The notes under the pieces were generated by a model. It worked only from the letters and a program-made list of their open reading frames with translations. It searched no databases and was not told where the DNA came from. Source: a bacterium (GTDB lineage Bacteria > UBP14 > UBA6098 > 4484-93). From it: a stretch of 36,029 nucleotides of DNA. This document shows, one piece after another, positions 6,529 through 24,371 of this stretch (within the stretch, counting starts at the first letter, position 1; the number at the start of each line of letters is the position of its first letter). The stretch is taken from contig JAGGUN010000052.1 of NCBI GenBank assembly GCA_021158465.1, positions 66,160 through 102,188 of the forward strand. Direction: 5' to 3'. A program made the translations under genes and the position numbers.

Positions 6529-6556
6529 TTGATTTCACCCCATTTTCGCTTATAAT
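6529..6556 (+). promoter_or_regulatory. sigma70-like promoter for the rpsF operon
   Basis: TTGATT (6529-6534) and a perfect TATAAT (6551-6556) are separated by 16 bases in the only long gap of the first 17 kb. The predicted transcript would start near 6563 and carry a leader of roughly 65-70 bases before rpsF. Confidence 0.7.
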
Positions 6557-6572
6557 GAATGGTTGATTTTCC

Positions 6573-6622
6573 CCTATTCTATTCCGGACGGTGAATAGGA
6601 TCATCTAAAGTCCGAAGGGAGG
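6573..6622 (+). promoter_or_regulatory. structured rpsF leader, candidate S6:S18 autoregulatory RNA
   Basis: CCTATTC (6573-6579) is perfectly complementary to GAATAGG (6593-6599). Inside that loop, CGGAC (6585-6589) is complementary to GTCCG (6610-6614), which sits just before the ribosome binding site GGGAGG (6617-6622) and the TTG start at 6631. The two helices interleave, as in an H-type pseudoknot. rpsF leaders in many bacteria contain an RNA element with an exposed CCG that is bound by the S6:S18 pair, and the second helix here includes a CCG. The pairings are seen directly; the pseudoknot and its function are inferred. Confidence 0.5.
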
Positions 6623-6630
6623 CAATAAAG

Positions 6631-6984
6631 TTGAAGAGAACCTACGAACTGGTGGTTATCACTCCCCCACACCTTGAGACCGATGAGCGAGAGGCTCTCC
6701 TTGAAAAGATTCGGGGCTACATCTCATCCAGCAACGGAAAGATTATAGGAGAAGAGGACTGGGGGCTGAGAAAATTCTGTTACCCTATCAAAAGGTCCGA
6801 CAGCGGATACTACACGCTGTTTGTCTTCGATGGGAAGGAAACATCCCCGAAAAGGATAGATGAAAGCCTTCGACTCAACGAGAATGTCCTAAGACACCTT
6901 ATTGTCCATAGGGAAAAACCCTACTCACCGTCGCCAATGGCACCAAAACCAGAGGAGCCCGATGAAGAAGCGGAAGAAAGCTAA
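6631..6984 (+). CDS. rpsF: 30S ribosomal protein S6
   Basis: Small-subunit protein that binds the central domain of 16S rRNA as a dimer with S18. It is 117 aa and begins with [12 protein letters not shown]. The body shows the S6 pattern [14 protein letters not shown] and ends in an acidic tail ([10 protein letters not shown]). It starts with TTG, read as fMet, eight bases after GGGAGG; no ATG with a better ribosome binding site is available. The 3' end overlaps rpsR by 23 bases. There is no ssb gene between rpsF and rpsR, unlike many bacteria. Confidence 0.96.
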
Positions 6985-7222
6985 AGCCAAAAAAGGTCAG
7001 GAGACAAAGAGGAGGAAACCCTGCCGGTTCTGCCAGGACCCGTCTTTAGAAATAGACTACAAAAACATTGAACTCCTGAGACAGTTCGTCTCCGAGAGGG
7101 GGAAGATTAAGGCTCGCAGGGTTACAGGCACCTGTGCCAAACATCAGAGGAAACTCGCCATCGCTATAAAGAGAGCCCGCTTCCTTGGTCTACTCCCCTA
7201 CCATGTCTATGTCTATAGGTGA
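6962..7222 (+). CDS. rpsR: 30S ribosomal protein S18, zinc-ribbon type
   Basis: Forms the S6:S18 pair on 16S rRNA; 86 aa from the ATG at 6962. A longer in-frame start at 6902 would add 20 residues read from inside rpsF and is not favoured. AGAGGAG lies just upstream of 6962. The basic N-terminus leads into the conserved core [17 protein letters not shown] and [14 protein letters not shown]. Four putative zinc ligands are present, C21, C24, C58 and H61, marking the zinc-binding (C+) form of S18. Confidence 0.95.
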
Positions 7223-8117
7223 ACCAAAGGGAATTTACGCCGCCTTCATACTCAGTATGCTATTGCCAGTCCTATACGCAGCAGGAGTAGGTGGTAGTAT
7301 AGGGGTGGTGATATGGGAGATAGCGGGAACAACAGCATTCACCATATCAAGCCATTTTATGGGAATAAAATCAGCGGTCGGCATCCTACCAATTATGGTT
7401 GCCATACCGTTCTCCGGATTCTTTGACTATGTCTACCTTCCACTCCTGAACATATTTGTAATCGGCTTCGCTATGGGGATATACACAAGGATGTCAAGCA
7501 AGCCCAAAGCCATCATACTTACGGGTGTTGCTTCTGCAGCGGTCGGGGTCGCCGTATTCGCTGGAGATTTCTCACTCCGCCTGACGGGAATTAGAGAACT
7601 TGCGAAATCAGAGCTCCTGTCCGTCGTCTCTTACCCACAGGAAATGGAAAAAATTGCCTCAAGGGCTGTAGAGATCACAACAGAAAGCTTGCCCGCAATC
7701 TTCATATTCTCATCCATCATAAAGGTGATCCTGGTTTATTACTTGGCATCAAAGCTCGTAAGCTCACTCAAACCACTACCGAAACTTGCAAAATGGCATC
7801 TGCCAGTATGGACCCTCATCGTCCCTGTAACAGGAGTAACCCTCATCTCATCCGGATACGATAGCATTATCCACATCATATCAGAGAATATACTTGTGTT
7901 CTCACTCCTCCTATTCGCTATGGGAGGTGTGTTCTTTCTGGAATCCATCTTTGAGAGAAGGAATGTGGCAGTGATCAGCCGAGCCATCGGATACGTTGTT
8001 ATGCTCTTTTTGCAGGGGATATTCATCCCTATCCTGGCATTGGTCGGAATAAGCGATACCGCATTCAACCTCAGAAAACTCACAAAAGGAGAAGAAGATG
8101 AAGGTGATACTGCTTGA
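7203..8117 (+). CDS. polytopic membrane protein, YybS/DUF2232-like
   Basis: About 304 aa, almost all hydrophobic, with roughly eight predicted membrane segments and short charged loops. Position between rpsR and rplI matches the YybS (DUF2232) family found there in several phyla; sequence similarity to that family is plausible but not proven by eye. The start is uncertain: ATG at 7203 or 7209 both lie inside the rpsR end, TTG at 7185 is possible, and none has a strong ribosome binding site, so coupling to rpsR translation is likely. The 3' end overlaps rplI by 20 bases. Its biochemical role is unknown. Confidence 0.72.
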
Positions 8118-8544
8118 GCGGGTACCAAAGCTTGGTGATGTGGGCGATGTTGTCACCACAAAGGATGGCTACGCCCGAAACTACCTCGTCCCGAAAGGGC
8201 TCGCTATACCAGCAACCAAGAAGAACCTCAAACAGATTGAAAAGATTAAACGCTTCAAGGCAGGGATTGAGGAGAAGAAACGCGCCCGACTGCAGGATGT
8301 TGCTGAAAAACTGGAGAATACTTCCTGTGAGATTGTCGTTAATGTGGACGAGGAAGACCATCTGTTCGGTTCGGTCACGGCAGGTATGATTGCAGAGGCA
8401 ATAAACAAACAGGGGTTTGCTATCGACAAGAAGCAGATACAGCTGGACGAGCCGATAAACTCCCTCGGAATCTATTATGTTACCGTAAACCTCCACAGGG
8501 AGATCCAAGCAAAGCTTAAGGTATGGGTTCTTAAGAGCGAGTAA
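8098..8544 (+). CDS. rplI: 50S ribosomal protein L9
   Basis: Large-subunit protein with two globular domains joined by a long helix; 148 aa, normal length. The N-terminal rRNA-binding domain carries [23 protein letters not shown] (seen as two adjacent motifs) and the NYLVPKGLAIPAT signature. The lysine-rich connecting helix follows, then the C-terminal domain with HLFGSVTAGMIAEAI. The start lies within the end of the preceding membrane-protein gene, with AAAGGAGAAG as ribosome binding site. Confidence 0.97.
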   Translation: MKVILLERVPKLGDVGDVVTTKDGYARNYLVPKGLAIPATKKNLKQIEKIKRFKAGIEEKKRARLQDVAEKLENTSCEIVVNVDEEDHLFGSVTAGMIAEAINKQGFAIDKKQIQLDEPINSLGIYYVTVNLHREIQAKLKVWVLKSE

Positions 8545-22773: not shown

Positions 22774-22846
22774 AGCGGGAGACGGGACTCGAACCCGCGA
22801 CCAACAGCTTGGAAGGCTGTGACTCTACCAACTGAGTTACTCCCGC
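22774..22846 (-). tRNA. tRNA-Gly (anticodon TCC)
   Basis: The minus strand folds as a 73-base cloverleaf: acceptor GCGGGAG/CTCCCGC, anticodon loop CTTCCAA, and T loop GTTCGAG. The discriminator base is T and no CCA is encoded. The 3' end is 16 bases before the radical SAM start codon. Confidence 0.95.
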
Positions 22847-22867
22847 ACAAAACAATCTATTTTGCTC

Positions 22868-22896
22868 AAAATAATAAGTTAACTCAACAATGTCAA
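22868..22896 (-). promoter_or_regulatory. promoter before tRNA-Gly
   Basis: TTGACA (22891-22896) and TATTTT (22868-22873), 17 bases apart, lie in the gap between tRNA-Tyr and tRNA-Gly. tRNA-Gly and the radical SAM gene could therefore be expressed apart from the two upstream tRNAs. Confidence 0.5.
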
Positions 22897-22912
22897 GAAC
22901 TTTATTAGCATC

Positions 22913-22994
22913 TGGTGAGGGGAGGATTCGAACCTCCGAAGGCTGAGCCGGCAGATTTACAGTCTGCTCCCTTTGACCACTCGGGAACCTCACC
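22913..22994 (-). tRNA. tRNA-Tyr (anticodon GTA)
   Basis: 82-base tRNA with a long variable arm. The acceptor is GGTGAGG/CCTCACC, the anticodon loop is CTGTAAA and the T loop is GTTCGAA. No CCA is encoded. The 3' end is 66 bases upstream of tRNA-Gly. Confidence 0.95.
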
Positions 22995-23007
22995 ATACTT
23001 CCACTCA

Positions 23008-23080
23008 AGCTGGCGGAGGGACTTGAACCCCCGACCGGCTGATTACAAATCAGCTGCTCTACCAACTGAGCTACGCCAGC
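23008..23080 (-). tRNA. tRNA-Thr (anticodon TGT)
   Basis: 73-base cloverleaf with acceptor GCTGGCG/CGCCAGC, anticodon loop TTTGTAA and T loop GTTCAAG. The discriminator is T and no CCA is encoded. It is the first tRNA of the Thr-Tyr-Gly cluster, 13 bases before tRNA-Tyr. Confidence 0.95.
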
Positions 23081-23092
23081 AGACTTGTTTTC

Positions 23093-23120
23093 AATATAAA
23101 GATTATGCCGTTATTGTCAA
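23093..23120 (-). promoter_or_regulatory. promoter for the Thr-Tyr-Gly tRNA cluster
   Basis: Minus-strand TTGACA (23115-23120), 16-base spacer, TATATT (23093-23098), ending 12 bases before the 5' end of tRNA-Thr. It has the same hexamers and spacing as the promoter of the tRNA-Lys/tmRNA unit. Confidence 0.75.
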
Positions 23121-23131
23121 CAAAATTTCTG

Positions 23132-23620
23132 CTAAAACTTATACCCTATCCTTCTCAGGAAATCGTGTCGCCATTTCCTGTCAGCTTCACCCTCGACACC
23201 AACAGGAGCAGATCCATCTATCACACCGAGTATCGCTCCTCCGTCACCAGAGCGAGCAACAACAACTCTCACGGGGTTAGCTGTCGCACAGAAAATGTTT
23301 ACGACCTCAGGAACATCTTTCAAACGGGTAAGGATATTTATCGGATACGCATTGCGCAGAAGTATCACAAGTGAATGCCCCGCCGAAATACGCTTGATAT
23401 TCTCAACCGCGGCATCGATAAGCTCGGTATCGTTCCCCTCGTAGCGGATAAGGCGAGCACCAGAAGCTTCCGAAAAGCCGATGCCAAACTTCGCATCGGG
23501 AACCGTGTTCACTATCGCCTCACAAACATCCTCAACCGTCTTTATGAAATGCGCTTGAGCAAGGATAACATTTGCACCATCAGGGAGAAGTAACTTCACC
23601 TCTTCTATCTCAAGAGCCAT
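23132..23620 (-). CDS. adenosine-specific kinase family protein
   Basis: 162 aa from the ATG at 23620, chosen for AAAGGAGG just upstream; an earlier in-frame start would translate the promoter region. It matches the small archaeal/bacterial adenosine-specific-kinase family (PF04008 type): ALEIEEVKLLLPDGANVILAQAHFIKTVEDV at the start, KFGIGFSEASG in the middle, ending DGSAPVGVEGEADRKWRHDFLR, given as adjacent pieces. The function in bacteria is poorly known and the kinase name rests on a structural and ligand assignment. It stands alone between RNA genes. Confidence 0.82.
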   Translation of the reverse strand: MALEIEEVKLLLPDGANVILAQAHFIKTVEDVCEAIVNTVPDAKFGIGFSEASGARLIRYEGNDTELIDAAVENIKRISAGHSLVILLRNAYPINILTRLKDVPEVVNIFCATANPVRVVVARSGDGGAILGVIDGSAPVGVEGEADRKWRHDFLRRIGYKF

Positions 23621-23639
23621 CCTAATTCCTCCTTTGTTA

Positions 23640-23668
23640 TAAATATAAAAAATAGAAAAAATTATCAA
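23640..23668 (-). promoter_or_regulatory. possible promoter for the adenosine-specific-kinase-family gene
   Basis: TTGATA (23663-23668) and TATTTA (23640-23645), 17 bases apart, in a very A/T-rich gap. The leader would be about 12 bases and contain the ribosome binding site AAAGGAGG. The -10 match is weak. Confidence 0.35.
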
Positions 23669-23689
23669 GGGCAATTAAAAAAATATTGA

Positions 23690-23812
23690 AATAAGTTCGG
23701 ATTCGACAAGACAGAGATAACGACAGAGCTTGGTATCGCAGCTACCTTCACTGGACCAAAGGAAACAACAGCTGGTATGCACGACCCAAGCTTACCATTT
23801 GAAATGATATAA
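23690..23812 (+). pseudogene. orphan coding remnant, 40 codons with stop but no start
   Basis: An open plus-strand frame bounded on the left by TGA at 23687 and ending in TAA at 23810. It reads NKFGFDKTEITTELG, then IAATFTGPKETTAG, then MHDPSLPFEMI. It looks protein-like, with alternating strand-type residues, but has no start codon or ribosome binding site before an internal ATG eleven codons from the end. It lies in the gap between the kinase-family gene and the 3' end of ssrA, so it is probably the tail of a deleted gene. I do not recognise the family. Confidence 0.45.
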
Positions 23813-23848
23813 TTAGGATGGAAACAGTTCAATGAATGGATAATCTAC

Positions 23849-24197
23849 TGGAGGCGGCGGGAGTCGAACCCGCGTCCGATGAAGCCCCAAAAAGCCTTCC
23901 TACGAGCGTAGCCAATCCTTTATTTTTCGCCGGATATGCCCCCGATTGGCAGGGTTCCTATCCGGTATAACCTGCTTATCTCATCCCTCCATCCGCAGGT
24001 AAGAAAGAGGGAAGTCCTCAGGTTTTTCGGCGCCCTGGATGCCCTCCCCTGAGGAGCGGATGGCAACCGGACGGCAGCATTTAAGCTGCTAACGCCAAAT
24101 TAGCGTCGTTTCTTTTTCTCTGTGTGTTTAACGAGGACACAGAACCTCGGCTCGCAGACTTCTTCGGCACATTCACCGTCGAGACCCGTTCGCCCCC
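23849..24197 (-). ncRNA. ssrA: tmRNA (ssrA)
   Basis: Transfer-messenger RNA that frees stalled ribosomes and tags their products; 349 bases. The 5' GGGGGCG pairs with the 3' CGCCTCC before a discriminator A, the T loop GTTCGACTC is present, and no CCA is encoded. The tag frame ends in ANLALAA and TAA (stop at 24081-24083). The likely tag is TQRKRNDANLALAA, with its first codon at 24123-24125 after TTAAAC; the exact resume codon is inferred. SmpB is not in the window. The 5' end is only 7 bases from tRNA-Lys(CTT), so both come from one precursor. Confidence 0.93.
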
Positions 24198-24204
24198 AAG
24201 ATAT

Positions 24205-24278
24205 TGCCCCATGAAGGACTCGAACCTTCGACCCACTGATTAAGAGTCAGTTGCTCTACCAAACTGAGCTAATGGGGC
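24205..24278 (-). tRNA. tRNA-Lys (anticodon CTT)
   Basis: 74-base cloverleaf with acceptor GCCCCAT/ATGGGGC, anticodon loop CTCTTAA, T loop GTTCGAG, discriminator A and no encoded CCA. Confidence 0.95.
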
Positions 24279-24298
24279 ATCTTTCTTCCTTTATCAAG

Positions 24299-24371
24299 TG
24301 AGGGTGGAAGGACTTGAACCTTCGGCCCACGGCTTAAAAAGCCGTTGCTCTACCACCTGAGCTACACCCCC
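24299..24371 (-). tRNA. tRNA-Lys (anticodon TTT)
   Basis: 73-base cloverleaf with acceptor GGGGGTG/CACCCTC (one G-U pair), anticodon loop TTTTTAA, T loop GTTCAAG, discriminator A and no encoded CCA. It lies 20 bases upstream of the second tRNA-Lys. Confidence 0.95.

Follow-up and report, generated by a model that had tools for sequence, protein, structure and literature searches.

Does the short leader of rpsF in this window (the whole 36,029-nucleotide stretch of DNA analysed) close the ribosome binding site as a pseudoknot, as a first-pass annotation proposed, or does it belong to a known class of leaders bound by ribosomal proteins S6 and S18? We favor the second reading, with a probability of about 0.86. 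The architecture of the leader, its counterpart in the nearest relative, a covariance-model match and the residues retained in S18 all point, at the level of sequence, to a member of the S6:S18-binding RpsF leader; by analogy with the known leaders, S6:S18 would bind it and repress its own operon. The pseudoknot is not supported, and the leader is in all likelihood an unremarkable S6:S18 leader that the current Rfam model fails to reach.

The rpsF operon and its leader

Pfam searches confirmed the gene order proposed earlier, with rpsF followed by rpsR, a membrane protein gene carrying DUF2232 and rplI in overlapping frames, and the leader directly 5' of rpsF (Table 1). rpsF begins with TTG here and in the congener, the two species known in the genus. 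Both hexamers of a promoter-like site upstream are identical in the congener, and their position predicts a transcription start at about 6562-6565 and hence a leader of about 66 nt before the TTG at 6631. When aligned with E. coli S18, the stretch AIKRAR of the window protein retains residues equivalent to K60 and R63, two residues of E. coli S18 that touch the conserved cytosines of the leader (PMC4647458). Elsewhere in the window, five tRNA genes are clustered with a tmRNA gene on the minus strand (22774-24371).

Table 1. Genes of the operon and predicted elements of the rpsF leader, in window coordinates.
Feature	Position	Strand	Details
Promoter-like site TTGATT-16 nt-TATAAT	6529..6556	+	10/12 consensus matches
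H1 5' strand CCCU	6572..6575	+	pairs with AGGG 6616-6619 in the R3 alignment
H2 5' strand AUUCUAUUC	6576..6584	+	9 pairs with 6593-6601
H2 loop CGGACGGU, 8 nt	6585..6592	+	contains the 5' strand of helix B
H2 3' strand GAAUAGGAU	6593..6601	+	R3 alignment
3' bulge CAUCUAAAGUCCGA	6602..6615	+	putative S18-contact CCG at 6612-6614, one base 5' of the H1 3' strand
Shine-Dalgarno sequence AGGGAGG	6616..6622	+	6616-6619 is the H1 3' strand
rpsF (S6)	6631..6984	+	PF01250, E 1.6e-25; TTG start
rpsR (S18)	6962..7222	+	PF01084, E 1.1e-28; overlaps rpsF
DUF2232 membrane protein gene	7209..8117	+	PF09991; overlaps rpsR
rplI (L9)	8098..8544	+	PF03948 and PF01281; overlaps the DUF2232 gene

Competing folds in the window and its congener

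The four strings from which the pseudoknot had been drawn lie exactly where the first-pass annotation located them. CCTATTC (6573-6579) and GAATAGG (6593-6599) form helix A, CGGAC (6585-6589) and GTCCG (6610-6614) form helix B, the two perfect helices interleave as described, and GTCCG ends one to two bases 5' of AGGGAGG. Because TATTC occurs in tandem (CCTATTCTATTCC), GAATAGG can pair in two registers, and helix A is an out-of-register version of a longer nested hairpin, H2, which has nine pairs versus seven in helix A. H2 directly adjoins a second helix, H1, within the leader (about 6563-6630), and a U-rich run at 6568-6570 would be able to extend H1 across the remaining Shine-Dalgarno sequence. 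Helix B is the loop of the nested hairpin paired with the 3' bulge; among shuffled loops of the same composition, 3.5% form at least five Watson-Crick pairs with the bulge. Other rpsF leaders show no enrichment of such complementarity (at least four pairs in 5 of 38, with 6.6 expected), and we rejected loop-bulge pairing as a general feature of rpsF leaders.

The sole congener among the 17 genomes of the phylum is candidate division Zixibacteria bacterium 4484_93, and with a single congener formal covariation inside the genus is impossible. The two leaders are identical at 61 of 68 positions, compared with 24 of 36 four-fold sites of rpsF, which suggests selection on the leader. Within the element the congener has lost one C from a run of Cs and carries C6589A, G6599A and C6605A, whereas GUCCGA (6610-6615) is unchanged. 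All 13 pairs of H1 and H2 are kept (4/4 and 9/9, respectively), G6599A converting a U.G pair of H2 into U-A. The same substitution turns the end pair of helix A into C-A, and C6589A turns that of helix B into A-G, both uncompensated. The first-pass annotation had named a lack of compensatory changes in relatives as refuting the pseudoknot, and the one congener compared shows that lack. Furthermore, the minimum-energy fold of the congener RNA is H1 plus H2, with pair probabilities of 0.94-1.00. Two sequences are insufficient for formal covariation, yet the direction of change between them clearly favors H1/H2 over the pseudoknot.

Nearest-neighbor folding of the window RNA gave a less simple picture. 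The ensemble of nested folds assigned helix B a probability of about 0.95 and helix A only 0.01. Helix B thus speaks for an H-type pseudoknot that closes the ribosome binding site, as does the perfection of both helices. Against it stand the low probability of helix A (in the ensemble of nested folds), the broken end pairs in a congener that keeps H1/H2, the lack of enrichment in the 38 other leaders, and the fact that such a fold would occupy the CCG read by S18 in known leaders. As a working fold it is therefore very unlikely, and the pairing most likely arose by chance and is not maintained in the nearest relative. The idea of an S6:S18-type leader with a meaningful CCG probably stands; its placement inside a helix probably does not, for in the known motif the CCG is unpaired in the 3' bulge.

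The lowest predicted energy belongs to a third fold, in which helix B encloses a nested GGUGA/UCAUC helix and hides the CCG (-15.1 kcal/mol, against -12.9 for the H2 fold and -11.9 for the helix-A fold). A species-specific two-state leader could be built on it, with the free RNA burying the CCG in CGGAC/GUCCG and GGUGA/UCAUC until S6:S18 remodels it to H1/H2, and its advantage of about 2.2 kcal/mol over the H2 fold is what recommends this reading. That gap, however, is near the uncertainty of energy predictions of this kind, the window RNA gains no stability over shuffled sequences (z 0.46), and C6589A and C6605A remove an end pair from each of the two alternative helices in the congener, where H1/H2 dominates. 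Nor do the folds make an on/off pair, because both pair the Shine-Dalgarno sequence. We regard a two-state leader as very unlikely. The preference for the third fold is nonetheless the main weak point of the case for H1/H2, although a bound protein could plausibly supply the difference of about 2 kcal/mol.

Covariance models of rpsF leaders

We read the rpsF leaders of about 110 genomes and built three covariance models, R1 to R3, with the window and its congener in the training set of none. The architecture predicted for the window leader recurs in E. coli, Bacilli and many other genomes, where a CCUU-like strand precedes a hairpin, and a bulge with (A/G/U)CC at its end leads into AAGGAGG. 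R1 came from a MAFFT alignment in which H2 was misaligned, and matched the window leader in a shifted register (15.6 bits, E 0.079). R2 used 16 leaders of one bulge length with loops trimmed, and placed the leader only sixth (11.4 bits). R3, refined to 37 members, keeps the hairpin and the bulge properly aligned and underlies our verdict; being the third model tried, it carries a freedom of choice.

In the 36-kb window R3 ranked the rpsF leader first (18.9 bits, E 0.0036; next site 14.0 bits), and E fell to 1.1e-5 when the search was restricted to the 112-base leader. All three models gave the congener a good score (22.4 and 19.2 bits with the two earlier ones; 26.6 bits, E 2.8e-5, with R3), and R3 gave it the same H1/H2 pairing as the window. 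Over the whole 2-Mb genome three places score higher, leaving the rpsF leader at E 0.2; because R3 is not specific genome-wide, the case depends in part on where the site lies, in front of rpsF. One site with a higher score than the rpsF leader (L130, G000:C36:81999-82033; 24.1 bits) matches only in H1 and CCAAAAGGAGG; this brief match falls where another, unrelated reading frame begins, and we take it to be chance.

Across the 37 leaders 95.7% of cells are paired, and there are 83 two-sided changes versus 20.6 in shuffles, a strong covariation, though one biased by a choice of seeds on structure. The CC of the window bulge (6612-6613) aligns with CC in all 37. At the first pair of H2, 33 leaders have G-C, three C-G and one G-U, where the window has A-U. 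A stretch of 16 nt, AAAGUCCGAAGGGAGG, recurs identically in the rpsF leader of one unrelated genome (L079/G157). Full shuffling matched the motif descriptor score of the window leader in 2 of 3000 cases and that of the congener in none of 3000; with the 3' part held fixed, the counts were 73 and 1 of 3000, respectively.

The public model is of less help. The Rfam match suggested earlier as a check did not materialize, RF02893 giving none in the window leader at its gathering score or even at E 10. This model finds the E. coli leader at 110 bits, yet it detects none of the motif-bearing rpsF leaders at 12 loci from Bacilli and other groups. It is too narrow to decide on the window leader, because it misses motif-bearing leaders in other phyla, and appears too narrow in general.

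These comparisons also bear on whether there is a regulatory structure at all. An ordinary short leader, conserved for its promoter and ribosome binding site, would be in keeping with a window RNA that folds no better than shuffles, with the weak R1 and R2 scores, and with two families of the same class, f2 and f3, whose rpsF leaders show no S6:S18-type structure when read and searched with R3. Such a leader would not, however, be expected to match R3 with identical pairing in two species, to be conserved well above the four-fold sites, or to preserve pairing at its H2 substitution, and we give this reading very little credence.

Proposed control and comparison with known leaders

Work in E. 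coli has shown that the RpsF leader represses translation, S6:S18 blocking initiation at rpsF, and the effect was validated in vivo (PMC4647458). For the window leader we infer protein binding and repression from studies of E. coli and B. subtilis. An excess of S6 and S18 over 16S rRNA would let the S6:S18 pair bind where H1 meets H2, by way of the CC(G) in the 3' bulge, and stabilize H1, so that the Shine-Dalgarno sequence would be held paired and translation of rpsF would stop. The overlapping frames would then carry the shutdown to the three genes that follow, rpsR, the DUF2232 gene and rplI. Membership in the S6:S18 family would place a feedback switch of ribosomal proteins, validated in other bacteria, in a lineage related to the little-studied Zixibacteria. 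Such leaders escape the current Rfam model in several phyla. The analysis further corrects a tempting but misleading pseudoknot reading, which arose from the tandem TATTC repeat.

Another family of the same class, f4, has a different and strongly conserved three-helix rpsF leader (L003, L005, L008 and L025, in genomes G009, G007, G004 and G011). Its elements run in the order GAAC, a hairpin GGCAU..AUGCC, a hairpin CCAUC..GAUGG, UCCA plus one base, GUUC and the Shine-Dalgarno sequence. Among the four sequences one pair shows a two-sided change and three pairs a one-sided change, and R3 found no match to this leader. Possibly it represents a rearranged S6:S18 leader in which the CC still lies beside the closing helix.

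The RpsF leader, or S6:S18 complex-binding motif (Rfam RF02893), was reportedly described by Matelska in 2013, Fu in 2014 and Babina in 2015. Like it, the window leader precedes rpsF in an operon with rpsR and rplI, has an H1 that includes the Shine-Dalgarno strand with H2 adjacent, and bears a 3' bulge with CC(G) just 5' of the H1 strand; the cytosine-contacting residues of S18 are likewise retained. Unlike it, H2 opens with A-U and U-A where the usual first pair is G-C (a feature that is not defining), the bulge is 2-3 nt longer, the leader falls below detection by the Rfam model, and the operon contains a DUF2232 gene and lacks priB or ssb. A second comparison is offered by the S6:S18 r-leader candidate of Chlorobi, reported in 2020 among 20 novel ribosomal leader candidates, which is restricted to Chlorobi and described as unlike the rRNA site (PMC7247131). 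The window leader shares with that candidate a proposed control of rpsF by S6:S18, but differs from it in having the CCG of the widespread motif.
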